From positions 3,038,001 to 3,102,000 of the forward strand of contig NZ_CP135052.1 in the NCBI RefSeq assembly GCF_029193595.2: 64,000 nucleotides of DNA, read 5' to 3'. The position numbers were made by a program, and so were the translations under genes. Positions 5,868 through 53,205 of this stretch are shown here, in pieces (position 1 is the first letter of the stretch; each line of letters begins with the position of its first letter). The DNA comes from Providencia hangzhouensis (GTDB taxonomy: Bacteria > Pseudomonadota > Gammaproteobacteria > Enterobacterales > Enterobacteriaceae). The notes under the pieces were generated by a model. That model was not told the DNA's origin. It made no database searches and saw only the letters and a list, made by a program, of their open reading frames with translations.

Positions 5868-6830
5868 TTAACTATAAGGCCTAACAATCTTATGCCATAC
5901 CGTTCCATCATACAGGTCTACACTATAATCACCCGCTACCACTAAAATGCCGTCACGCACATCCATATGGCCAGACAGAAGAACAGATTCATCACCATCC
6001 ATCGGGCGTACCATTTCATTGCCGTCCCAACACTGTAAACGATAGTCATCACAAGCCCAGACTTTATCTTCAAACCAGCGCAGTTGATTCAGTAAAATCG
6101 TCGAGCCCCCGTGGTACAATTTTTCCCATTGGAATTGACGGCCACGCCATAGGCTGCCGCCTTCACCACCGATATACACATAACCATCTGGGGCGCACAG
6201 CACTGCGCTTAATTGTTCATTGGAGGGAAAGCCACAGGGGATCCATTGTTCACCATCATAGTGCCAGACATCCCCTTCACCGCCAACGGCATACATATCT
6301 TGCTCTGAAAAACCATCAAGATCCGTGAATCCCATATCGGTATCTGTTTCTCCACCTGGAATACCTTTTTGAAGTCGCACCCATTTACCAATGTCGACAC
6401 GTTTATAAATTTCACGTGCAGAGCCGACATAATAGGCATAACCTTCAATGCATTTGATATTTTTAGGATTTGCAAAATCACCTTCCATGACCTTTTCTAA
6501 GGGAAACTTAGAACCACTACCCATAGATTTTACAAACCCATCATCCCCTCTAGAAGCAAGCATCCCTTGTTCTTTTGGTTTGAAACAAACTCCCACTTTA
6601 GGACTATCAAACCCCTCAAATCTAATATAATCAATCGGGTCATCTGGTGTATCTAAATAAATACATAACAACTGTGAAGGTATTTCACTATTCCAGAGAT
6701 TTCTGGCTTTTTCATAGGGAACATCTTTGCGTAAGCAAAAATACACGATATTTTTATCTCGGATTGCACATCCAGTAAAAATATACCCTTTGATATATTT
6801 AGCCCAATGTTCTTTGGTAACATAACTCAT
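5868..6830 (-). CDS. Beta-propeller-like protein, candidate immunity to the GHH nuclease effector
   Basis: 320 aa, no signal peptide. From ~residue 100 it shows repeated aromatic/Gly blocks (GDVWHYDGEQWIPC, GGSLWRGRQFQWEKL, DDYRLQCWDGNEM, SVDLYDGTVWHKI) of ~40-50 residues, typical of propeller blades. The ATG overlaps the stop of the toxin gene (TAATG), so it is translationally coupled directly behind the effector, the usual place for the cognate immunity gene. Immunity function is inference from position; I cannot name the family. Confidence 0.55.
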   Translation of the reverse strand: MSYVTKEHWAKYIKGYIFTGCAIRDKNIVYFCLRKDVPYEKARNLWNSEIPSQLLCIYLDTPDDPIDYIRFEGFDSPKVGVCFKPKEQGMLASRGDDGFVKSMGSGSKFPLEKVMEGDFANPKNIKCIEGYAYYVGSAREIYKRVDIGKWVRLQKGIPGGETDTDMGFTDLDGFSEQDMYAVGGEGDVWHYDGEQWIPCGFPSNEQLSAVLCAPDGYVYIGGEGGSLWRGRQFQWEKLYHGGSTILLNQLRWFEDKVWACDDYRLQCWDGNEMVRPMDGDESVLLSGHMDVRDGILVVAGDYSVDLYDGTVWHKIVRPYS

Positions 6831-16106: not shown

Positions 16107-16181
16107 TACACGCCACCAGAGCAGCGTCCCTCGCTGTTCGGGGCTTTTATGTCCTCACACAAGCTATTGTGAAACGGCGTT

Positions 16182-16359
16182 TAACGGTTGGATAAATTCC
16201 AATAGCTAAAAGTTTCTCTTTACCATCGATTCGGTATATTAACCGCCAATATTTTCCGTCATTAGTTTGAACCGATAGATACAGCCCACCACCATCAGAT
16301 AGTTTTTAGTCTTTTTCTTTAGGCTTACTGGAATCAATTTGCTTAACGGTTAGCTTCAT
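16182..16359 (-). pseudogene. 5' fragment of a P4-type integrase with a nonsense codon
   Basis: 178 bp nearly identical to the first 60 codons of the intact integrase at 38189-39400 and collinear without indels. Codon 18 is TAA (16306-16308) where the intact gene has TAC (Tyr18). Homology stops after PTV at 16182. The upstream (int-promoter) side is also duplicated, through to 16554. It is the int-end of an older element that used the same tRNA site. Confidence 0.9.
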
Positions 16360-16554
16360 TTGGGGGTACTCAAATCATGGGGTATAAATGTACCCCATAT
16401 GTACCACCTGAAGGGGGGTAGTTTTCAATAGACGATAGTAGACGTTGGAATAATGGGATTTAGTTGGAATGCTTGTTTGCTTGTTTGTTTGTATAACTTA
16501 AGGGGATTGGAAGACTTTAGAAAATGTTGCTAGAAGTGAAGATGGCGGAGGAGG
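16360..16554. repeat. Second copy of the int-tRNA junction (distal attachment site)
   Basis: This stretch repeats the DNA between the intact integrase and tRNA-Ser (39401-39576), with small indels. It ends with 16530-16554, identical to 39552-39576, which includes the last 12 nt of the tRNA (TGGCGGAGGAGG). After 16554 the two copies diverge. This marks the far boundary of the satellite and its likely core site. Confidence 0.85.
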
Positions 16555-18358: not shown

Positions 18359-18370
18359 CTTGATACCATC

Positions 18371-18407
18371 AAAATATAAGCTAGTGGTTAAAATATAATG
18401 CTAGTGG
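18371..18407. repeat. 19-bp tandem repeat upstream of the OB-fold gene
   Basis: Two copies of AAAATATAA(T)GCTAGTGG start at 18371 and 18390. They lie 13-50 bp upstream of the OB-fold gene start, over its presumed promoter (TATATT on the minus strand), so they could be a regulator's operator pair. Confidence 0.5.
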
Positions 18408-19022
18408 GACTCAGGAAGATCGGATAATAATCCTAATTTCTAGGGTTGATCTAAACGTTAATTTATCCATGATGATACGGGATAATCCCGTATGTATCTA
18501 TAAGCTATTGATTATGCTTAATTCCGTTAAATCGACGGAATCAAAATATAATTGATTGATAACGCTTAATTCTGTCACAAAACCAGATTAACGCTCATTG
18601 GTCATCGTTTCAGTGACCAATGGTAAGAGGTGGCAATGCATTGTTTTCATTACTAACGGTTAAATTGACCGCCTGAAACCTTGTAGTAACCTTAGTGTTA
18701 GTTTCCATTTCCTAAAGTGCGTTTTCACTGGAAACCATTGTGGAAACCTCACCGTAATCTCACCGTTATCGGCTTAATCCTCCCCGTAACATCCCCGTTT
18801 AACCTTACCGTAACCTTACCGTTCAATCACATTATACGGGCCGTAATAGGACCGTTATTTTAGCTTTAGTCATTCATGTTCAGAGTAGATAACCTATTGA
18901 TTTACTAAGTAACGCATATTTGCGTCACGGTAACTTATTAGCATCTACAGATTGCAACAAAATATCATTTAATGAATATGGGCGACTAATCACCCATATT
19001 GCCAATGAGGTATCAAGCAAAC
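18408..19022. other. Non-coding region rich in palindromes and phased repeats
   Basis: No gene seen. Elements: 19-bp palindrome 18475-18493 (ATACGGGAT-A-ATCCCGTAT); ATTCCGT/ACGGAAT 18521-18541; 20-bp direct repeat with 4 mismatches at 18507 and 18555; CATTGGTCA/TGACCAATG 18596-18622; AACCTT twice at 11 bp (18677, 18688); GGAAACC twice at 12 bp (18730, 18742); the CCGTAA units (18752-18856); ACGCA-tatt-TGCGT (18912-18925); AATATGGG/CCCATATT (18975-19000). The function is unknown. Confidence 0.7.
18752..18856. repeat. Four CCGTAA-N5-CCGTT units
   Basis: CCGTAA starts at 18752, 18784, 18808 and 18841. In every case CCGTT starts exactly 11 bp later (18763, 18795, 18819, 18852). The bases before each CCGT are nearly shared within a unit but differ between units (CTCA/CTCA, CCC/TCC, CTTA/CTTA, GGG/GGA). 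Units are 24-33 bp apart. This looks like paired protein-binding sites on one helix face. Confidence 0.75.
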
Positions 19023-19595
19023 CTATTTATTTTTACTTTTTTTCCAAATTATAAAATGAATAATCCCTAAACCACCGTGACCATAAATATAAATCTCAAT
19101 TAAAATTGTGAGTGATTTATGAATACTTCTAGCCTCTAAAGCAAGTGGTGACTGCTGTAACCATAGAATAAACCATGCAATACCAGACAAAATAACAATT
19201 GATAAAGCACCTAACCCTAACCCTTGAACTGTCGCGGCAAGCCCTTTAGGTGAGCTGTCTGGTAGCTTTTTAGCTAAAAGAGAGTTTATATCTTCTTTGA
19301 TTTGCTTAAAGTCCCCCCAGAGATAGGGATAAAAATATCTAAACCCTCGCTGGTTAAAACATAACACGACTAAAAAGAACGTTAAGAAAAAAAGCACAAA
19401 ACCTGAAACGATATGAATCCAAGTGAATAAATAAGTCTCGTCAAAAAACGGAACAACTACTGACTTAGTTCCCGTCATCCAATTACTCACAATGATTTGT
19501 GATATTACCAAAAGTAGAATTAACGCATGTAAAATTCTTATTTTTTTAGTCTGATAAAGCCCAAAAAAATCCCAAATCGATTTTAATATGCTCAC
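19023..19595 (-). CDS. Cytochrome b561-like membrane protein
   Basis: 190 aa, GTG start preceded by AAGGTG. Four membrane helices: ILHALILLLVISQIIVS, TWIHIVSGFVLFFLTFFLVV, LGLGALSIVILSGIAWFILW and IHKSLTILIEIYIYGHGGLGIIHF. His residues in helices 1, 2 and 4 (RILH, WIH, GHGG..H) and the IHK loop fit the di-haem b561 / bacterial cytochrome b family. It would move electrons in the inner membrane. An isolated gene inside the satellite's structured non-coding region, so it is cargo. Confidence 0.6.
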   Translation of the reverse strand: MSILKSIWDFFGLYQTKKIRILHALILLLVISQIIVSNWMTGTKSVVVPFFDETYLFTWIHIVSGFVLFFLTFFLVVLCFNQRGFRYFYPYLWGDFKQIKEDINSLLAKKLPDSSPKGLAATVQGLGLGALSIVILSGIAWFILWLQQSPLALEARSIHKSLTILIEIYIYGHGGLGIIHFIIWKKSKNK

Positions 19596-20004
19596 AATGC
19601 TTCACCTTTTTTATAATATTTCTCACAGACACAATTTAATAGCTTATAACACTCTTGTTTATGGCTTTAAGTCCTAAGCGTAGAATATTTTATATGAAAT
19701 ATAGTTCACATCTACCAATTAATTACGACCATCCTTTTAAGATGATTACATTTATCGTTATGAGATGTTTTTATTATCAGTATGAAATTAATATTCAGAG
19801 GACAAAATTGTCCTGTGGGTATCGCAATGCTTATTTGCATTGTGGTTACTTTTGGTGGTTACCAAAGTGGTTACTTTTATCTCATGGCCATGATTAGAAT
19901 ATTGCCAGCCAGTGACGAGCCTCCAATTTCAGAGCCTCATGACTCCTTAATCTCAAGGAGTCCTATTTAACCGCCTTAAGTACCCTTGATATCAAGGCAA
20001 CCTA
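19596..20004. other. Non-coding or weakly coding region with dyads and phased repeats
   Basis: Holds AGGACAA-aa-TTGTCCT (19799-19814), CAATGC/GCATTG (19825-19842), GTGGTTAC three times at 13- and 12-bp steps (19842, 19855, 19867), GAGCCTC twice (19917, 19932), GACTCCTT/AAGGAGTC (19941-19962) and the palindrome CCTTGATATCAAGG (19984-19997). A 62-codon + strand frame at 19782-19970 has one hydrophobic stretch but no ribosome site, so I do not call it a gene. Confidence 0.5.
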
Positions 20005-20192
20005 TTATCGTTTTGGTGCTGGCTTAGTCCATTGGTAGGTTGGTGCTGTCATTCTCCGTCTGTGACGCTCTTTAGCCTGTATTGTCTGTGCTACACCTGT
20101 TCTAATGGCTAACCTATCGCGTCCGTTGAGTGATTGCCCTGCTGGTGAGCTAACTCCATCATAACAGCTTCTATTGCTTCACGTTGTAACAT
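20005..20192 (-). pseudogene. Small frameshifted ORF
   Basis: An ATG at 20192 with GAGG upstream opens MLQREAIEAVMMELAHQ, but that frame stops after 27 codons. A shift near codon 15 continues as SSPAGQSLNGRDRLAIRTG and on to ERHRRRMTAPTYQWTKPAPKR and a stop at 20005-20007. Together they would make a ~62-residue basic protein of the kind common in P4-like elements. Either a frameshifted pseudogene or two unrelated frames. Confidence 0.35.
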
Positions 20193-20934
20193 GGCTTTAC
20201 CTCAAAGGTGTTGTGATTATCGCTATACCTTGATTGTGCTGAATTGGAACAATCAAAGCCCATCATTCCACTAGCATAAAACATGCTGTTTTGCTGCGTA
20301 CCATTCTGCGTACTTTCCCACAACATCATGATTTTATTTGATTATAACGAAATGCGAGAATTAAACGCATACCTACTGCGTACCTATTTAATTTTGGACG
20401 GACTTATAAATTTGTTTGGCGTGATGACAAGTTTTGACAAGTTTTCGACCACAACAATTAACAACATTTACTTTGTTCTCATGTCTGGTTTTGTCAGGTT
20501 CTGATGTCAACAATTATCAACATTCAGCGGATAGAGTATCCAGTAAAATATAGCCTTTTCGGTGGATACCAAAACGGATACCTTACAATCACTATAACAA
20601 CACCATAGTACCACCGTGGTTTATATTAGTACCATTTCGGTACGTTATTACCGTGATTCTTTTTGATGCCAAAATAGCTATACCGTGTTTTTATAGGTTA
20701 GCTGTACTGGCTAATATTTAGCTACTATGGCTAAAGGCACTAATTTGTGGTTTTGATATGAGAGCTTCATTTCAAGCCGTCCTCAGCACCAAGGGTAGCA
20801 TTTCAACTGTCACCCTTTCCGACTATGGCCATAATCACAATCGTTAACCCTCCTCAATTTTGAGGGCACTGTTTCTATTGATAAATACAGGTTCAAAAAT
20901 GAGCTGATTGATTCTATTGGTAAAATTAGACTGT

Positions 20935-20948
20935 GCTCAAATTTGAGC
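20935..20948. repeat. 14-bp palindrome with CTCAAATTTGAG core
   Basis: GCTCAAATTTGAGC is a perfect palindrome. Its 12-bp core occurs again as a perfect palindrome at 35440-35451 in the same satellite (ACTCAAATTTGAGT, 35439-35452). Two exact 12-bp palindromes in 23 kb suggest a shared operator. Confidence 0.5.
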
Positions 20949-21073
20949 TTTGCCATGTATTCAGCTAGTTACAAGGCGCAATAATACGCTTTGCTTGTTT
21001 TACAGTAAGTTACTCTAACTTTAAGTTATAGAATTAATCATTAAATCCACCAGCAATTTTACATTTTCTAATC

Positions 21074-21092
21074 TGTATAACAGTGTTATACA
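21074..21092. promoter_or_regulatory. Dyad operator upstream of RHH gene
   Basis: TGTATAACagtGTTATACA is an 8+3+8 perfect inverted repeat 44 bp before the ATG of the RHH gene. A TATAAT box follows at ~21097-21102, so the dyad overlaps the promoter's -35 region. This is the expected layout for autoregulation. Confidence 0.6.
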
Positions 21093-21135
21093 CTGATATA
21101 ATAAGCACTCAATGAATTAATAACGGACTATTATC

Positions 21136-21558
21136 ATGAGTAAATCTAATCTTATTGCCTTTCGTTTACCTGCTGAACTGCAAGCACTGTTTAATGATGC
21201 TGTATCGAACTCTGGTACTGATAAAACAGCGTGGATAGTCTCAGCTATCAAAGAGAAGCTAAACCGCCCAGACAGTAATCCTGACGCTCGTATGCTATCG
21301 CTAGTAGAACGCCTAGAATCGTCTGTAGCGTCTTTAATTGCTGGTAAGGCAGATATCCCACCGTATACCTATAATGAGTCTGCTGTCGTTTCTGTGGTTA
21401 ATTTGGTGCTATCAGAGGGCATAGATAACGGGCGGATTATCGCAGAACGAATTAACGAGGCTGGATATCAAACTAAAGGCGGTAAAGCGTGGGATAAGGA
21501 TATTTATTCAGCGTGGAAGCGTCACAAAGATATTGCAGGTAAGCTAAATTCAATTTAA
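21136..21558 (+). CDS. RHH-type DNA-binding protein with recombinase-like C-terminal motif
   Basis: 140 aa. The N-terminus (LIAFRLPAELQALFNDAV...DKTAWIVSAIKEKL) fits a ribbon-helix-helix domain. The C-terminus (IIAERINEAGYQTKGGKAWDKDIYSAWKRH) resembles the small helical motif next to serine recombinases that reads 'IA..LN..G..T..G..W'. One of only two + strand genes in the satellite. A dyad overlaps its promoter. Likely a repressor; its targets may be among the paired sites to its left (inference). Confidence 0.6.
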   Translation: MSKSNLIAFRLPAELQALFNDAVSNSGTDKTAWIVSAIKEKLNRPDSNPDARMLSLVERLESSVASLIAGKADIPPYTYNESAVVSVVNLVLSEGIDNGRIIAERINEAGYQTKGGKAWDKDIYSAWKRHKDIAGKLNSI

Positions 21559-21736
21559 TCATCCTTACCTAAGAATCATAATTAGGTGGCTCAGAGAGTT
21601 TAGCTAACTAGTGCTCTTGTTTAGTACGAAATAAAATGACGTGGTAAAGCAAAGAAAAATCAGATGCAAGGTAAGGAAGGCACTTAAACGCTAACTTCCT
21701 TGCACACTGTTTGTGACTATAAAATTTCAAAAGACT

Positions 21737-22033
21737 TCAAAACTTAAGCTCTTCTATATCCTTATATAGAGTTATATCAGAATTATTACCGAGAAGATGA
21801 TCCCTTATCATTACAGTTATTTCATAAGTATTTTTAATAGCAATAGCCGCTCTATGGTGATTTAAATTAATAGTTAATTGCTTCTGAGTTGGGACTGGGA
21901 AACCAGGACGAGCAGATAAGCGTTTATTAGTCATCGAATCAATAACAGAAATAGTACCGTCTATAGCAGAATAAAATTGCTCTTTAGATAAACCATTGTA
22001 ATAGACAACAAATTCATAAGAAGGATTGGACAT
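21737..22033 (-). CDS. Hypothetical protein
   Basis: 98 aa, soluble, no recognised family (MSNPSYEFVVYYNGLSKEQF...). The ribosome site is weak (AGGT 9 bp upstream). It lies alone between the RHH gene and the UDG-like gene, in the cargo part of the satellite. Function unknown. Confidence 0.4.
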   Translation of the reverse strand: MSNPSYEFVVYYNGLSKEQFYSAIDGTISVIDSMTNKRLSARPGFPVPTQKQLTINLNHHRAAIAIKNTYEITVMIRDHLLGNNSDITLYKDIEELKF

Positions 22034-22382
22034 AGAAGATACCTATACTGTCATAATACCAGAAATAAAATAGAGCCGTTGTTAATGAAACTCTTTATAA
22101 TATAATCTGTCCATCACTAAAATGCTAATCATCACCGTACAGAATATAGAGTTCCCAGTATGTACAAAAATTTGTGTTATCGACCCTTGCTAATATTTGT
22201 GCATTTCTTTTATTTATTTCGTTTTGCAGAGTGCTCTAGTATTCACTAGTAGTTCATGCTCAAAAAAGAGGTGGCACTGCCTGAAATACGTTAGCAAATG
22301 TTAGCATCTGAACGTTATCAAATGTTATCATTCGACCAGTAATAATCTTAGGATTTCTTAAGATTTTGGCATTAGAAAAACG
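22034..22382. other. Non-coding region with phased doublets
   Basis: 349 bp without a gene. The left part is AT-rich and unremarkable. 22236-22366 holds CTAGTA twice at 10 bp (22236, 22246); GTTAGCA twice at 10 bp (22290, 22300); GTTATCA twice at 10 bp (22314, 22324); and CTTAGGATTT then CTTAAGATTT (22347, 22357). Confidence 0.65.
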
Positions 22383-23737: not shown

Positions 23738-26700
23738 TTAAAAGCTGCCTCTTGCCTTTCTGCCTAACCCATAAGCATGACGTAAAGCATCATCTAATTT
23801 CCCACCGTTCATCACTTCATGAATAATTTCATCAAGCGTGATCGTGTTTGTCCTTGGGTCATATTTTGGCTGTCCAAATTCAACCTGAGCACTCGCAACG
23901 GTGTTATTCACATTGATAACAACATTAGGCACGCCACCGCCCCCAATATCACGATTAGGAATAACCTTGCCGCCTTCTCCTGGTAAAAGGTAATTTCTCC
24001 CTGCGGCTTGAAATATTTCAGGCTTACCACCTTCACCAAATCGATACATTTTATTCGCATCGACCGCGCCACCGTTATAACGTCCACCACCAAAGCCAAT
24101 CATTGACATCGACGTAGCTTTTCCTGCGGCCTGTGCGGTTGTATAGGCTGATAATCCCGTTCCTGATGCTGCTCCACCTGTTGCGATAGATGCCGCTATT
24201 GCTGCAGGTGTCCATGCTGCTAATGCTGCCGCGCCTCCTGCTGTCGCTGCCGCTGCGTTCGCTGCCTGTGAAGCAACGCCAATTGTTTTAGTCAAGATGA
24301 AGTTTTTAAGCATCTCCACGCCAACCTGAGCAATGGAATTTACGACACTGTTTAGCATCGTATTGCCTAACGAGCGCAACGCCTCTGACGCATCCATTGA
24401 GCCAGTAATTAACCCTGTCAGGACGTTTGAAGCATTACCCGCCAGAGAATCAACCGCTGAAGCCAACATCTCATAGCCTAAGTTTTGCTGTCTCATTAGC
24501 TCCCATTGTGCCGCTAATTGCTGCTGTTGATACTCTTTCTCTGCTGCGGTTCTGAGTAGCTGGTATTGCGCATCGGTTGCCGCTTTGGATGCGGTGAACT
24601 GGTCATGGCTAATCTGTTGTTTTGCATAGGCTTCATTGAGTATTTGTAGCTCTTGCGCCTTGTATTCTTTCATCATGGCTAACTTCTGAGTATGCTCATT
24701 AGCTAATGCCTGAATCGGGTCAAATTTAGCGCGATTTTCCTCAACGTAATTCACTGAGGCATTAATTTTGATATCGGTCATTCCCTGATTAAATGACACC
24801 ATTGCCTCACGCCCCATACGCTCAAAATCTTCCTTGTTGATGAAGTCCTCATCTAACAAACGTTTGAGGGTTTTCACTTCCTCACCAAAGGTATGCGCCA
24901 GTTTTAATTCTGGGGTGATTTCCTGAGCCGCAATAAAATCATTCACGCGCTGATTGAGGTCAAACAGTTCCGCAGCCTCTTTCGAAATAGCCGCTTTTTG
25001 TTTCTCTGTTGCCTGTGCCCCTAGTCGCTGAACAGCTTCATAGATTGCCATTTCACGATTAACATCGGCTACGCCACTTTCCAGTAATCCATAACGTTTT
25101 TTCAACGTAGCTAACTGCTCACTCTGGCGTTTTATCGCTTCATTCGCTTGGTTGGCGGCTTTAGCGGATTTATTGCCTTTTGATTTACTGCTTAGTGCGG
25201 CTTCTTGGGCTTCACGTAATTTGCGTATGGCTTCAATGGCTTTCGGGAGTTCGGCATTGTAGGCGGCAGAACCTTGTTTTAATCCCATTTGCATCAGAAG
25301 TAACGAGGAGTTGTATTCATCCAGTGCCGGCTTACCGTCGTTCATGCCAATCGTGAGGGCTTTGGTGCGCTGCTCAATCTCAGTGAGAGAGTTAGCAAGG
25401 TTCAAGCTGACTGTTTTATCAAACTCATCCGTTAACTCTTGGATTTTCTGTTTAAATATTTCAGAGTCTTTCACAAAGCCGTCAGCAATTAACGCCTTTT
25501 CTAGCTCTTTGATAGCCTGTTCTTTCTTAACGGCTGCCTCGCTGCCTAATTCCAGTGATCGGGCTACTTGTTGGTTAGCATCAATCACGCCTTTAGCTTG
25601 GCGTTGGTAAATTAAATCGGCTCTGGTCAGTTCGTCTGTTTGTTGCGCTCTAACCTTAGCAATATCAGCGGCTTTTCTTTGCGATACCGTCCAGCGTCGA
25701 ATGTTTTGCTCACCTTCTGAAATAAGTAGCTCATACTGCTGCTGTTTCTTTGTGAGTTTTTCAATTTCCTTAACGAAATCATCTAACGAGTATGATGGGC
25801 TAACTTCTCCATCTTGCTTTTTAAGATCCTGAATTCCTTTTTCAATTCTGCCAAGTTCTTCTCTATGATTTCGTAGCTTTTCGTTTACAGCTTCAAGACT
25901 TTTTTTCTGTCCATCTAGCTCTGTGGTTGTTTCCGCTATCTTCTCGCCTAAGCGGTTAGCGACAACACGAGCCTGTTTTGCTGACAGTTCGTCAATTTTA
26001 TCAATCCACTGATCTACCCTGTCGTTAAACTCTTTAGTGGCGGTGTCATCGTTCATGGCGTTATATAATGCGTAAACACCTGCGGCAGCTAAAAAGAATA
26101 CGCCAGTAGGGCCACCTAATAACCCAACCGCGCCCCGTAACCCTTGCATAGCCATAGACTGAGTTTTAGCGGCTTGGGCTGCGCGGTTATTGGCTGCGGT
26201 CACTGCGTCCGTTGTGGTCGCTAGTGTGGCTTTCGCTTTTTGCTCTAATGCTAATGCCGCATTTAATTTATGGGTTGCGTTGGCTTCAACTTCTTTCGCT
26301 TTAGCGACTTGAGCCTCAACACGCGCAATTTCTTTCCCTGTTGTGGCTAAATGCGTTTTGATTTTGGTTTCTGTGGCGTGTAGGGCGTTGCTGGCTTTGG
26401 TGACGCGTTGTAGATTTTCCTCACTCGCTGCCATTTGATAGGTTATTTCGGCATCCTTGAGCTGTACCGCCTGTCGTGCCCTCAGTGACTCTAAATCACG
26501 TTGCTTGGCATCATTAGCCGCTTCTAGTGAATAAACGTGCTCTAACGCTGCCTGAGCCGCTTTTAACTCGGCTTGTGCGGATACTGTCAGATTTCTAGCG
26601 TTAATGACTTCTTGGGAGGCTGCGGCTTGTAATGCCTGTGCTTTCATTTGAATAGCGCGAGTATGTGAAACCTCGGCTTGTGTGGCGTTAATCGCCCCTT

Positions 26701-27082
26701 GAGTATGTTGTAAGAGTGAAGAGGTCGCACTGCCAATATTAGAAATATACCCCGCACCTAATAACCCAGAGACATTACTAATTACACCTGTAAAACGCGC
26801 ATTCGCGCTAGTTGCTCTGTCTGTAGCGGCTGTCGCTGCGCCAATTTGCCCCGTTAACTCGCTCATTTGACGTGATAATCGGTTAATTTCAGGCATTTTT
26901 AACGCACTGGAAACGGCCATTGCTGTTTTATCAAAACGGTAAAAGGCTTTCGACGTATCATCAGCCTGTTTACCCATTTCAGCCATTTTCCGCTTTGTTT
27001 CTCTAATCGCTTTATTCGCTTCAAGCAAGCTCTCAGTCTCACCATGTATGTCTATTGTATAACCTTCACCGTGATACGTCAT
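23738..27082 (-). CDS. Phage tail tape measure protein
   Basis: 1114 aa, full length for a long-tailed (siphovirus-type) tape measure. Long alpha-helical coiled-coil stretches rich in Ala/Gln/Lys fill most of it; a hydrophobic segment lies at ~315-345 (GLLGGPTGVFFLAAAGVYALY) and another at ~935-985, and the C-terminus (GGRYNGGAVDANKMYRFGEGGKPEIF...LLPGEGGKV) has the usual conserved form. It controls tail length in phages. No frameshift is seen. A satellite with its own intact tape measure but no tail tube genes might replace or compete with the helper's protein (inference). Confidence 0.85.
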   Translation of the reverse strand: MTYHGEGYTIDIHGETESLLEANKAIRETKRKMAEMGKQADDTSKAFYRFDKTAMAVSSALKMPEINRLSRQMSELTGQIGAATAATDRATSANARFTGVISNVSGLLGAGYISNIGSATSSLLQHTQGAINATQAEVSHTRAIQMKAQALQAAASQEVINARNLTVSAQAELKAAQAALEHVYSLEAANDAKQRDLESLRARQAVQLKDAEITYQMAASEENLQRVTKASNALHATETKIKTHLATTGKEIARVEAQVAKAKEVEANATHKLNAALALEQKAKATLATTTDAVTAANNRAAQAAKTQSMAMQGLRGAVGLLGGPTGVFFLAAAGVYALYNAMNDDTATKEFNDRVDQWIDKIDELSAKQARVVANRLGEKIAETTTELDGQKKSLEAVNEKLRNHREELGRIEKGIQDLKKQDGEVSPSYSLDDFVKEIEKLTKKQQQYELLISEGEQNIRRWTVSQRKAADIAKVRAQQTDELTRADLIYQRQAKGVIDANQQVARSLELGSEAAVKKEQAIKELEKALIADGFVKDSEIFKQKIQELTDEFDKTVSLNLANSLTEIEQRTKALTIGMNDGKPALDEYNSSLLLMQMGLKQGSAAYNAELPKAIEAIRKLREAQEAALSSKSKGNKSAKAANQANEAIKRQSEQLATLKKRYGLLESGVADVNREMAIYEAVQRLGAQATEKQKAAISKEAAELFDLNQRVNDFIAAQEITPELKLAHTFGEEVKTLKRLLDEDFINKEDFERMGREAMVSFNQGMTDIKINASVNYVEENRAKFDPIQALANEHTQKLAMMKEYKAQELQILNEAYAKQQISHDQFTASKAATDAQYQLLRTAAEKEYQQQQLAAQWELMRQQNLGYEMLASAVDSLAGNASNVLTGLITGSMDASEALRSLGNTMLNSVVNSIAQVGVEMLKNFILTKTIGVASQAANAAAATAGGAAALAAWTPAAIAASIATGGAASGTGLSAYTTAQAAGKATSMSMIGFGGGRYNGGAVDANKMYRFGEGGKPEIFQAAGRNYLLPGEGGKVIPNRDIGGGGVPNVVINVNNTVASAQVEFGQPKYDPRTNTITLDEIIHEVMNGGKLDDALRHAYGLGRKARGSF

Positions 27083-29685: not shown

Positions 29686-29893
29686 CTGTTCATGTGTTCA
29701 TAAAAAGTTATTTTCCATATATAACAATTAATTAAGCATGAACACTTCAATGAACACCTATGAAGACTTATGTAGAGTCTACATATCAACAATGAACACT
29801 CATGAACACTTAATGAATACTTAAATTTCAAGTGTTCATAAATTACTTATTGATATTTATACCTATTTTTCACTTATGAACACTATGAACAGT
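29686..29893. other. Candidate replication origin: ATGAACACT iterons
   Basis: ATGAACACT or close variants occur at 29738, 29750, 29792, 29802, 29813, 29876 and 29885 on the + strand, and as AGTGTTCAT at ~29694 and 29831 on the other, in an AT-rich gap. Steps of 9-12 bp within groups keep them in phase. The cluster lies right behind the primase-helicase gene. P4 alpha protein binds similar 10-bp iterons (GGTGAACAG type) at P4 ori and crr, so this is the best origin candidate. Confidence 0.65.
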
Positions 29894-38188: not shown

Positions 38189-39400
38189 TTAAGCACGTTT
38201 AAAATTGCCGTGGACAACATTATCCCCGTTCTCTAATGCCCCCATGTAATCAGCGTACCATTGAAGCATTTCTCTACGGCCATCAATATACTGAGCATGG
38301 TTATACGTTCCACGGATAGAGTTTTTATCAACGTGCGCTAACTGTGTCTCAATCCATGCAGTGTTATAGCCTTGTTCGTGTAGGATGGTGCTCATTGTGT
38401 GCCTGAATCCGTGACCTGTGGCTCTACCACTGTAGCCCATGCGCCTAATCATCGTATTCAGTGCCATATCTGATATGTGCTTTCTATAATCGATGCGGCT
38501 AGGAAATATATATTGATAGCTGCCACTGATTGGATGTATCTGTTTCAGTAAATCAATAACCTGCTCTGATAGTGGCACAATATGCGGTCGGCACATTTTC
38601 ATTTTTTCAGCTGGTATTTCCCATACCCCAGTATCAAAGTTAATTTCTGACCATTCCGCCTTTCTCAATTCGCCTGGTCGAACTCCAGTTAATATAAGCA
38701 CCCTTAATGCCACTCTTACAATCTGGCTTCCCATGTACTTATCTATAGAAGAAAGAAACTCTGGTAATTCACTAACTGAAAGATGGGCGTAGTGCTCACG
38801 CTTATGTGGTACAAAGGCACTGGCTAAATCTGGCGCAGGGTTATACTCTGCCCTACCAGTAATAATGGCGTACTTCCACACCTCACTGCAACGTTGACGC
38901 ACTTTCTTTAGCTTCTCGGTTGCTCCGCGCTTTTCCATAATAGAGAGTACTTCGAGTAGTTCCATGGGTTTGATTTCAGCAATCGGGCGATTACCTATAT
39001 AAGGAAAAACGTCTTTCTCAAATGCGTCCATCATGTCATCACGATAACCAACAGACCAGCGATCCTTTCTTCCCTCATACCATTCAAGGGCAATATTTTT
39101 AAAGGTGTTTACACTGTCAATCTTTGAGGCTTGCTTTTGTTCTTTGCGTTGTTGGTTTGGGTCAATTCCATCCGCCAGCAATCTCTTTGCATCATCACGC
39201 TTTCTTCTGGCATCAGCTAGTGTAACGGTTGGATAAATTCCAATAGCTAAAAGTTTCTCTTTGCCATCAATTCGGTATTTTAACCGCCAATACTTTCCGC
39301 CATTAGTTTTAACCAATAGATACAGTCCACCACCATCAGATAGTTTGTAGTCTTTTTCTTTAGGCTTACTGGAATCAATTTGTTTAACTGTTAGCTTCAT
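38189..39400 (-). CDS. int: P4-type tyrosine integrase
   Basis: 403 aa. N-terminal arm-binding DUF4102 domain (MKLTVKQIDSSKPKEKDYKL...GGLYLLVK...WRLKYR); catalytic domain with Arg241 (GVRPGELR), H330-x-x-R333 (HGFRH) and nucleophile Tyr366 (TYNHAQ). It would integrate and excise the satellite at tRNA-Ser. It lies 164 bp from the tRNA 3' end and reads away from it, as usual for P4-like elements. Intact, in contrast to the N-terminal fragment at 16182-16359. Confidence 0.92.
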   Translation of the reverse strand: MKLTVKQIDSSKPKEKDYKLSDGGGLYLLVKTNGGKYWRLKYRIDGKEKLLAIGIYPTVTLADARRKRDDAKRLLADGIDPNQQRKEQKQASKIDSVNTFKNIALEWYEGRKDRWSVGYRDDMMDAFEKDVFPYIGNRPIAEIKPMELLEVLSIMEKRGATEKLKKVRQRCSEVWKYAIITGRAEYNPAPDLASAFVPHKREHYAHLSVSELPEFLSSIDKYMGSQIVRVALRVLILTGVRPGELRKAEWSEINFDTGVWEIPAEKMKMCRPHIVPLSEQVIDLLKQIHPISGSYQYIFPSRIDYRKHISDMALNTMIRRMGYSGRATGHGFRHTMSTILHEQGYNTAWIETQLAHVDKNSIRGTYNHAQYIDGRREMLQWYADYMGALENGDNVVHGNFKRA

Positions 39401-39401
39401 T

Positions 39402-39487
39402 TGGGGGTACTCAAATCATGAGGTATAAATATACCCCCATATGTACCACCTAAAGGGGGTAGTTTTCAATAGACGTTAGTAGACGTT
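39402..39487. repeat. Candidate integrase arm sites near tRNA end
   Basis: GGGGGTA (39402), TACCCCC (39432), TACCACC (39444) and GGGGGTA (39456), then TAGACGTT twice at 10 bp (39470, 39480). The same words recur in the duplicate junction (16360-16425) and at the distal end (16617-16635). Confidence 0.45.
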
Positions 39488-39551
39488 GGAATAATGGGAT
39501 TTATTTAGAATGCTTGATTTACTTGGGATTAGAAGACTTTGGAAGACGTTA

Positions 39552-39576
39552 CTAGAAGTGAAGATGGCGGAGGAGG
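39552..39576. repeat. Attachment site at tRNA-Ser end
   Basis: 25 bp identical to 16530-16554. The last 12 bases are the tRNA-Ser 3' end (39565-39576). Insertion at this point keeps the tRNA complete. Confidence 0.85.
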
Positions 39577-53034: not shown

Positions 53035-53205
53035 TTACACTACCGCTATGGTTCGATCCTCCATCGCCTTTCGCCAACCACCTAGCCAATGCGACCGAGC
53101 ATCTACTGCTTGATATGGGCATAGTTCTTTAGAGCGCCCTGCTAAACCTGCTTGATAACCTCTTGATAAAGCTCTTTCTAAACGGTCTCGCTTCTGTCTT
53201 TTCAT
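53035..53205 (-). CDS. rmf: Ribosome modulation factor
   Basis: 56 aa: MKRQKRDRLERALSRGYQAG, then LAGRSKELCPYQAVDARSHW and LGGWRKAMEDRTIAVV, stop 53035-53037. Nearly identical in pattern to E. coli RMF, which dimerises 70S ribosomes to 100S in stationary phase. Convergent with fabA, as in E. coli. Confidence 0.95.
   Translation of the reverse strand: MKRQKRDRLERALSRGYQAGLAGRSKELCPYQAVDARSHWLGGWRKAMEDRTIAVV

Follow-up and report, generated by a model that had tools for sequence, protein, structure and literature searches.

We analyzed a stretch of 64,000 nucleotides from Providencia hangzhouensis (contig NZ_CP135052.1, positions 3,038,001 to 3,102,000; this whole stretch is here referred to as the window) and found, in the non-coding DNA of a phage satellite integrated there, an array of short words that are each repeated about one helical turn further on. 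Doublets of the same letters and spacing lie inside the terS genes of tailed phages. The doublets are very probably packaging signals of the terS type, and those of the array are probable mimics of the pac signals of several helper phages; we also think it rather likely that the array acts as a bank through which more kinds of phage can package the satellite. We infer TerS binding, use as packaging starts and the wider helper range from the DNA sequence. In phages, two or three direct repeats of 7-9 bp, spaced by one helical turn within terS, would be read by a ring of TerS helix-turn-helix domains and would mark the phage DNA for headful packaging by TerL; the constant step fits, because a ring of DNA-binding domains would read repeats one turn apart. 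The satellite, for which no terminase was found among the proteins scanned, would carry a row of such signals for different TerS specificities in its non-coding DNA, and any compatible helper replicating in the same cell could load satellite concatemers.

The non-coding DNA analyzed amounts to 2731 bp (18359-19022, 19596-21135, 21559-21736 and 22034-22382). Counted as maximal exact pairs, repeats of 6 bp or more occur 6, 5, 4 and 1 times at steps 10, 11, 12 and 13, respectively, with none at steps 9 and 14 and 0-3 at each remaining step from 3 to 40. The null model consisted of 1000 dinucleotide shuffles of the 2731 bp, and steps 5-8 and 14-17 served as controls. At steps 10-13 there are 16 pairs of at least 6 bp (shuffle mean 3.12, maximum 9), 11 of at least 7 bp (mean 0.86, maximum 5) and 7 of at least 8 bp (mean 0.24, maximum 3). 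The excess is absent at the control steps, where the corresponding counts are 3, 2 and 0 against 6.3, 1.7 and 0.5 in shuffles. The matched runs are mostly 7-9 bp long and typically shorter than the step. The doublets in the array are real and far above chance, and the original prediction, which had been made from the letters of the window and had expected more doublets than in shuffled DNA, is confirmed in this respect; moreover, all 13 pairs that it quoted are present at their coordinates. CTAGTA, AACCTT, TACCTA and ACAACA, of 6 bp each, could singly be due to chance. Doublets had also been said to be missing from the gaps between host genes. They are indeed sparser there, the density of pairs of 7 bp or longer being 0.77 per kb over the 3.9 kb of host gaps, about a fifth of the 4.03 per kb in the array (2.32 in the remaining gaps of the element, 3.0 kb in all), but the host gaps are not free of them, and Tandem Repeats Finder (TRF) reports a period-11 repeat at 53145.

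We then compared the array with phage DNA. A 491-bp piece of it gave weak, short matches in TerS genes in 8 of 17 records of annotated phages. These belong to 6 phages, namely Lactobacillus phig1e, Enterococcus EG-TP1, Listeria A118, Lactococcus PLg-TB25, Morganella IME1369_01 and Providencia PSTCR7lys; the genes of PSTCR7lys and PLg-TB25 are unnamed in the records and were assigned to TerS by PHROGs. With the reversed sequence of equal length as control, none of 8 records was annotated as TerS, one of the 8 being without annotation. Another short array piece matched terS in 4 of 27 records (Pseudomonas Cruim01, two Synechococcus phages and Streptococcus IPP24), and 19 of the 27 are unannotated DNA of Streptococcus satellites or of a satellite-sized element. 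The piece at 22.23-22.38 kb matched terS in 1 of 29 records. Matches to named terS genes span about 20-46 bp, and in the regions fetched around these matches the doublet strand is opposite to terS. PSTNGR2lys was rejected as a terS match and not counted, its open reading frame (ORF) being an anti-repressor.

The same polarity was found on a larger scale. The counts from IMG/VR and from our collected loci refer to the matches listed, and these are not independent, several loci having been picked by pattern and many being near-identical. TerL was scored downstream of a site if its 3' end lay within 3 kb, with a small TerL panel and with many contigs that end early. In IMG/VR, TerL lies downstream on the opposite strand at 94 of 122 sites of TGTCAGGTTTTGTCAGGTT (same strand at 1), and at 26 of 57 sites of the CTTACCGT doublet, 45 of 159 of the TGGAAACC doublet and 21 of 120 of the CTGCGTAC doublet, with no case on the same strand for these three. 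In the TerS-like ORFs of the collected loci (without the window, L001-L082 and L084-L086), at least 292 sites are opposite and 1 is on the same strand.

Eight types of the window have a terS counterpart, all with one polarity: TGGAAACC, TCCCCGT, CTTACCGT, TGGTTAC, CTGCGTAC, TGACAAGTTTT, TGTCWGGTT and CTTARGATTT. Further types with a terS counterpart come from relatives of the satellite (TGGCAACC, CTTGCCGT, GGACCGT and CTCGCCCT). In TerS-like ORFs, the doublets of TGGAAACC (at least 106 sites, many near-identical), CTTACCGT (at least 41) and CTGCGTAC (at least 29) are all opposite, while that of TGTC[AT]GGTT has at least 97 sites opposite versus 1 on the same strand. Among named phages, the TGGAAACC doublet occurs in terS of Pseudomonas phage Cruim01, that of CTTACCGT in terS of the pneumococcal phage IPP24 and that of TGTC[AT]GGTT in terS of Morganella IME1369_01; the TGACAAGTTTT doublet agrees in 23 of 23 bases with terS of Lactococcus PLg-TB25 and at 92% over 26 bases with that of Listeria A118, and the counterpart of CTTARGATTT lies inside terS of Fusobacterium phage phiPaco, oriented like the other types. 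Triplets are shared as well. The TGGTTAC triplet with steps 13 and 12 is found in the window and, with unrelated spacers, in three terS genes (L702, L704 and L705), TGGCAACC with steps 12 and 15 in arrays of relatives and in terS of PSTCR7lys, and GGTTTCCA with steps 15 and 12 in terS. The TGGAAACC pair at step 15 was unusable as a control for wrong spacing, many terS sites having a third copy at that step.

Within terS, the doublets fall on the codons of conserved TerS motifs (NLTKP, NGKxTxR and EVSTKVST) and might thus be by-products of the protein sequence. We gathered terS genes by protein, using queries that themselves bear doublets, and kept the best 80 of 167, all 54, and the best 80 of 583 relatives; after removal of near-identical and very short genes there remained 63 of 80 (phrog_51-like), 38 of 54 (phrog_1206) and 62 of 80 (IME1369-like). 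Expectations for runs of at least 8 bp were obtained by reshuffling synonymous codons. At step 11, 17 of the 63 phrog_51-like genes carry a doublet against 0.4 expected, all at nucleotides (nt) 135-149 and in about six letter versions, including ACGGTAAGG, CGCTAAGG, ACGGCAAG, ACGGGGAGG and AGGGCGAG. At step 10, 24 of the 62 IME1369-like genes do so against 1.2 expected, all at nt 113-121 and in about five versions (AAAACCTG, AACCTAAT, AAACCTGAA, TGTTGAGG and TGATGACA). For the 38 phrog_1206 genes the counts are 32 versus 6.9 at step 12, 6 versus 0.2 at step 13 and 24 versus 3.9 at step 15, with letters such as GGTTTCCA, GGTAACCA, GGTTCGCA and GTACGCA. Most other steps are at expectation in the terS sets. 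Because the counts exceed synonymous reshuffling, the doublet appears to be a DNA signal written into terS, beyond what the protein explains. On this sequence evidence, the paired word stays at a fixed place in terS and its copies drift in concert, as in the satellite arrays.

The arrays themselves recur in related satellites. A 4.4-kb query matched 22 of 24 Providencia genomes, the window's own included; in 19 genomes, as read from the alignment rows, it matched outside the block with the cytochrome gene, and the block ends recur. In 12 Providencia intervals, taken from an SSB-like gene (below the Pfam cut-off) to the RHH gene, we listed 36 step-and-letter entries of at least 7 bp, which include overlapping variants and a few likely chance ones. 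Copies agree within a doublet, and between units and relatives the letters change jointly, as in TGTCAGGTT twice versus TGTCTGGTT twice, and also in CTTACCGT, CTCACCGT, CTTGCCGT and CTCGCCCT. The doublets fall into three classes, with step 10 (TGTCNNGTT-like), step 11 (NNNCCGT-like) and step 12 (TGNNNACC-like, in some cases extended by a third copy at 13 or 15), and the copy number among relatives is 2, 3 or 4. The RHH gene marks 33 loci, all labelled as Enterobacterales genera except one metagenome-assembled genome labelled Paceibacterota. Upstream of this gene (2.5 kb, or 1.95 kb in L058; 32 of the 33 loci, L080 being skipped), 92 doublets of at least 8 bp were counted at steps 10-13, whereas shuffles gave 4.9; the count for eight control steps is 20. 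Three or more doublets are present in 15 of the 32 loci. Low-complexity runs were excluded from these counts and from the listings of array doublets. The pattern is kept in relatives, with units present or absent and the copies within a doublet changing together. In nine loci outside Providencia (L064, L065, L070, L072-L076 and L079), the RHH gene is preceded, at a distance of about 60 bp and near 5940, by a TGTCTTAC doublet of step 10, which could be either that gene's own operator or another packaging doublet. Three satellites (L813 in G009, L821 in G002 and L822 in G023) carry, downstream of the RHH gene, an intact terS of 130 aa with the CTTGCCGT doublet.

Matching terS doublets were found among the prophages of the same genus. 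All 7 phrog_1206 terS genes in the 24 Providencia genomes carry TGCGTAC, TGGAAACC or GGCAACC doublets, which are types found in Providencia arrays. For 5 of the 7 the whole repeat is found in these arrays, and the other two, L791 and L793, match in all but the outermost bases. The TGGAAACC doublet is in the Providencia prophage terS L793, CTGCGTAC in L792 and TGCGTAC in L789-L791. Outside Enterobacterales, six step-11 doublets are packed into about 0.3 kb of unannotated DNA in each of the Streptococcus satellites Javan313 and Javan737, and Javan449 has a weaker array. The ACCTTACCGT doublet is common to pneumococcal satellites and terS of the pneumococcal phage IPP24. A piece of the Javan737 array matched 121 records; among the matches listed its own kin dominate, many are weak and outside terS, and none is annotated as terS, and a 36-bp match to Streptococcus phage Javan326 falls in a terS frame longer than the annotated one. 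In Pseudomonas phiAH14b, about 1.3 kb contains 15 pairs of 8 bp or more at steps 9-13, of which some lie in small annotated ORFs, and we read the orientation of its doublets as mixed.

Several results weigh against the reading of the doublets as pac mimics. The main negative result is that the known pair phiAH14a/phiAH14b shares no terS doublet. Shared signals were seen in pairs of prophage and satellite whose relation is unproven (Providencia; IPP24). The candidate TerS gene of phiAH14a, p60, is of another type, which we take to be the DUF2280 family, and pairs of 6 bp or more are missing from it at steps 8-17. Among the phrog_51 terS genes of Providencia prophages, no array doublet is shared except one 7-bp pair in L811, the other sharers being satellite-borne, and terS of 80alpha has only a 6-bp pair of step 10, at nt 119. 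Among the collected loci, no terS counterpart was found for CTCACCGT (one site of the exact doublet, not in terS), GCRTACCTA, TGTCAACA, GGATACC, GTTAGCA, GTTATCA and AACCTTAG, nor for the full 8-mer GTGGTTAC. A short search with GGATACC and TGTCAACA gave 2 records, neither in terS. The phage search with GTGGTTAC gave 50 records; among the matches listed two are strong and neither lies in an annotated terS (one record is without annotation, the other match is non-coding in phiAH14b), and the rest have E of about 10. Among the IMG/VR matches listed, no TerL of the panel was found at 99 of 120 CTGCGTAC sites and 114 of 159 TGGAAACC sites, the longest ORF covering a CTGCGTAC site more frequently shares the strand of the doublet (69 versus 49), and some sites fall in proteins unlike terS and some in other satellites. 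Within terS, excesses at step 7 in phrog_1206 (8 of 38 versus 0.3, in L655-L708) and at step 12 in the phrog_51-like set (6 versus 2.5) are unexplained. In addition, terS genes share ancestry, for which the reshuffle does not correct, and the phrog_1206 set consists mostly of one letter version; our argument rests on one place occurring with several letter versions. Finally, the available part of PMC4737164 states that the box repeats of SPP1 do not drive binding by the isolated SF6 domain and matter little.

Among other explanations, the array might consist of titration decoys, which bind the helper's TerS, keep it off helper DNA and so interfere with helper packaging. The sequence evidence for decoys is the same as for pac mimics, and interference of satellites with helper packaging is known, as Ppi binds phage TerS (PMC12597102, in part). 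A decoy, however, needs no single polarity, yet the eight window types with a terS counterpart share one, and one copy per type would make a small sink. With their single polarity and full spacing, the doublets look more like start sites than like titration targets, an argument that the mixed orientation in phiAH14b weakens outside Providencia; overall we consider titration possible but improbable. The original prediction had offered a decoy or sensing array for helper regulators, and an array aimed at DNA-binding proteins of the helper is indeed close to the pac-mimic reading, but the proteins now indicated are TerS and not RHH- or AlpA-type repressors.

Paired operators for regulators of the satellite or helper (RHH, AlpA or CII-like), also suggested at first, are very unlikely. 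Direct repeats at 9-13 bp suit many regulators, and the TGTCTTAC doublet upstream of the RHH gene in the nine loci would agree with them. However, the common sites lie within the terS coding sequence, apparently not in promoters, they resemble packaging signals, and the doublet types outnumber the regulators named in the satellite. Readings as OmpR/PhoB-type, CII-type or integrase arm sites were considered and dropped once the terS matches appeared. Slightly less credible still is the idea that the doublets are remnants of terS fragments that mirror the codons of the NLTKP, NGKxTxR and EVSTKVST motifs. It would account for their coincidence with motif codons, and some related satellites do hold an intact terS (L813, L821 and L822), but the protein does not explain the doublet under synonymous reshuffling, the matches to named genes cover the short spans given above and not the gene, many different types stand in series, and multiplied copies (three TGTCAACA in L023, for example, and four GTGGTTA in L041) do not look like codons. 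To functionless scars of primer slippage or templated duplication, another early suggestion, we give next to no weight, because the matched runs are usually shorter than the step and same-step doublets are under DNA-level constraint in phage terS; copy number does slip among relatives, but letters and spacing are identical to terS doublets in phages of several phyla and the excess is limited to steps 10-13.

Under the pac-mimic reading, the units of the window can be described as follows, the strand being that on which the matching terS gene would read. Predicted mimics for phrog_1206-type TerS, all on the minus strand, are two TGGAAACC of step 12 (18729..18748, with EVSTKVST codons on the other strand), three GTGGTTAC of steps 13 and 12 (19842..19874, VTTSVTS) and two CTGCGTAC of step 12 (20294..20313, VRxQVRx). 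GGATACC twice at step 12 (20564..20582), without assigned strand, was placed in this class by spacing and letters and is present in 7 of the 12 intervals, the window's included. Predicted mimics for phrog_51-type TerS, again on the minus strand, are the step-10 doublets of TGACAAGTTTT (20425..20445, NLSKLV/NLSKPV), of TGTCTGGTT/TGTCAGGTT (20482..20500, NLTKPD) and of CTTARGATTT (22347..22366, ILRNPKI). The second of these is a mismatched hybrid, the single such case in the window, and both of its units occur separately and matched in relatives. Two copies of TAACCTTACCGT at step 11 (18800..18822, minus strand) are a predicted mimic for phrog_51/1595-type TerS (NGKVTVR). TCCCCGT twice at step 11 (18781..18798, minus strand) belongs to the NGxVTG class and is found in terS of L594 (ACGGGGAGG, nt 136), and CTCACCGT twice at step 11 (18748..18766), assigned by class, would give NGEITVR if read on the minus strand.

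The remaining units have no assigned strand. AACCTT twice at step 11 (18677..18693) is a weak exact pair, which appears as two 8-bp AACCTTAG in L022, L023 and L035. GCRTACCTA twice at step 11 (20367..20386) came from the exact-pair scan and corresponds to two TGCGTACCTA in L024. A weak doublet of step 10, ACAACAATTA/ACAACATTTA (20451..20470), was seen by TRF and the pair scan, and TCAACA twice at step 10 (20507..20522) is extended to two TGTCAACA in six relatives. The exact pair of GTTAGCA (22290..22306) is followed 24 bp on by that of GTTATCA (22314..22330), both of step 10, with the same base changed in both copies. One unit is missing from the window: L022, L023, L029 and L031 have an extra TGGCAACC triplet of steps 12 and 15 at the place of 20287..20296, where the alignment-block ends overlap. 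The array lies on both sides, upstream and downstream, of the family marker, an RHH-like gene of 140 aa (21136..21558, plus strand) whose product has no Pfam or PHROG match, and it encloses a cytochrome b561-like cargo gene (19023..19595, minus strand; Pfam Ni_hydr_CYTB, 2.7e-14) in a stretch absent from several relatives. Between the doublets at 18359-21135 there are varied hairpin-like palindromes (e.g. 18597-18621, 18975-19000 and 20852-20865), which may be further signals of other types. The palindromic non-coding DNA at 18474-18685 shares 119 bp at 89% with Providencia phage PSTCR7lys (L083, 6992-7145), upstream of a KilA-N-like gene; its role may be regulatory or in packaging, perhaps as a cos mimic.

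The satellite extends from about 16.18 to 39.58 kb, adjoins tRNA-Ser and is flanked by direct repeats of about 0.37 kb (16179-16554 and 39220-39576; 90-94% identity). The repeat takes in the 5' portion of the integrase gene, a hint of tandem accretion at the tRNA-Ser site. The genes of the satellite include an integrase, an AlpA-like regulator, anti-repressors and a primase, and the stretch 23738-27082 codes for a long tape-measure protein of the tail type and for a protein of the neck type. We scanned 19 window proteins with PHROGs and 10 with Pfam, 22 different ones in all and a subset of the ORFs, and no capsid, portal or terminase was named among these 22. In a genome-wide search with the two terS families phrog_1206 and phrog_51, the window's own genome gave no match to phrog_1206, and its single phrog_51 terS, at C1:2180506 and outside the element, has no doublet of at least 7 bp; for these two reasons no resident helper was identified. 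Tandem iterons of the ATGAACACTC type adjoin the primase gene (29750-29824, by TRF), which we take to be perhaps a replication origin or crr of the P4 type, and TGAACCAAC repeats adjoin the primase-type gene of an Escherichia coli plasmid element (L086).

More generally, it seems fairly likely that phage satellites of several phyla keep a changing "pac bank" of up to about 15 terminase-recognition doublets, which match different terS types in letters and spacing and are gained and lost in small units, and that the TerS motifs NLTKP, NGKxTxR and EVSTKVST are partly dictated, in their codons, by the doublet. If so, the helper range of a satellite could be read from its array DNA, and the evolution of TerS motifs would gain an explanation at the DNA level; if the doublet is the pac signal embedded in terS, the sequence of terS could serve to predict pac sites. 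A full-text literature search listed no paper that describes arrays of this kind, judged by titles and the starts of abstracts and with most subscription journals and all preprints outside the search.

The array can be compared with several known systems. The pac site of SPP1 overlaps the segment of gene 1 coding for the DNA-binding domain of TerS, and both pacL and pacR are bound by gp1 (PMC6316719, in part); the isolated SF6 TerS domain has a weak preference for [T/G][T/C][A/T]GGTT (PMC4737164, in part), which fits the step-10 half-site of TG-TC[A/T]GGTT. The phage counterparts of our doublets likewise lie over a stretch of terS, but the satellite has many different sites in series, in non-coding DNA and without the gene. 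Pseudomonas phiAH14b, which is reported to be packaged into capsids of its helper and for which headful trimers have been proposed (PMC4936722, in part), also has a dense array, although its doublets have no match in the terS candidate of its helper phiAH14a and the available part of that paper does not mention the array. Staphylococcus aureus pathogenicity islands (SaPI) and phage-inducible chromosomal islands (PICI) similarly use a packaging signal in satellite DNA to divert helper packaging (PMC12597102, in part), and some Providencia relatives carry terS; in the window element, by contrast, an own terS was not found, and the signals would mimic TerS of several helpers. P4-like satellites share with our element the integrase, the AlpA-like regulator and the alpha-type primase. 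The P4 packaging site is a single cos, matched to P2. This cos is placed between int and psu (PMC8628076, in part), whereas the window element has a row of doublets, with psu, sid and delta not named among the 22 proteins scanned, a subset of the ORFs. In mobilizable plasmids with several oriT, such as pEC156, the transfer is by conjugation and not by phage packaging, but there, too, multiple starts widen the range of helpers (PMC11389934, in part).

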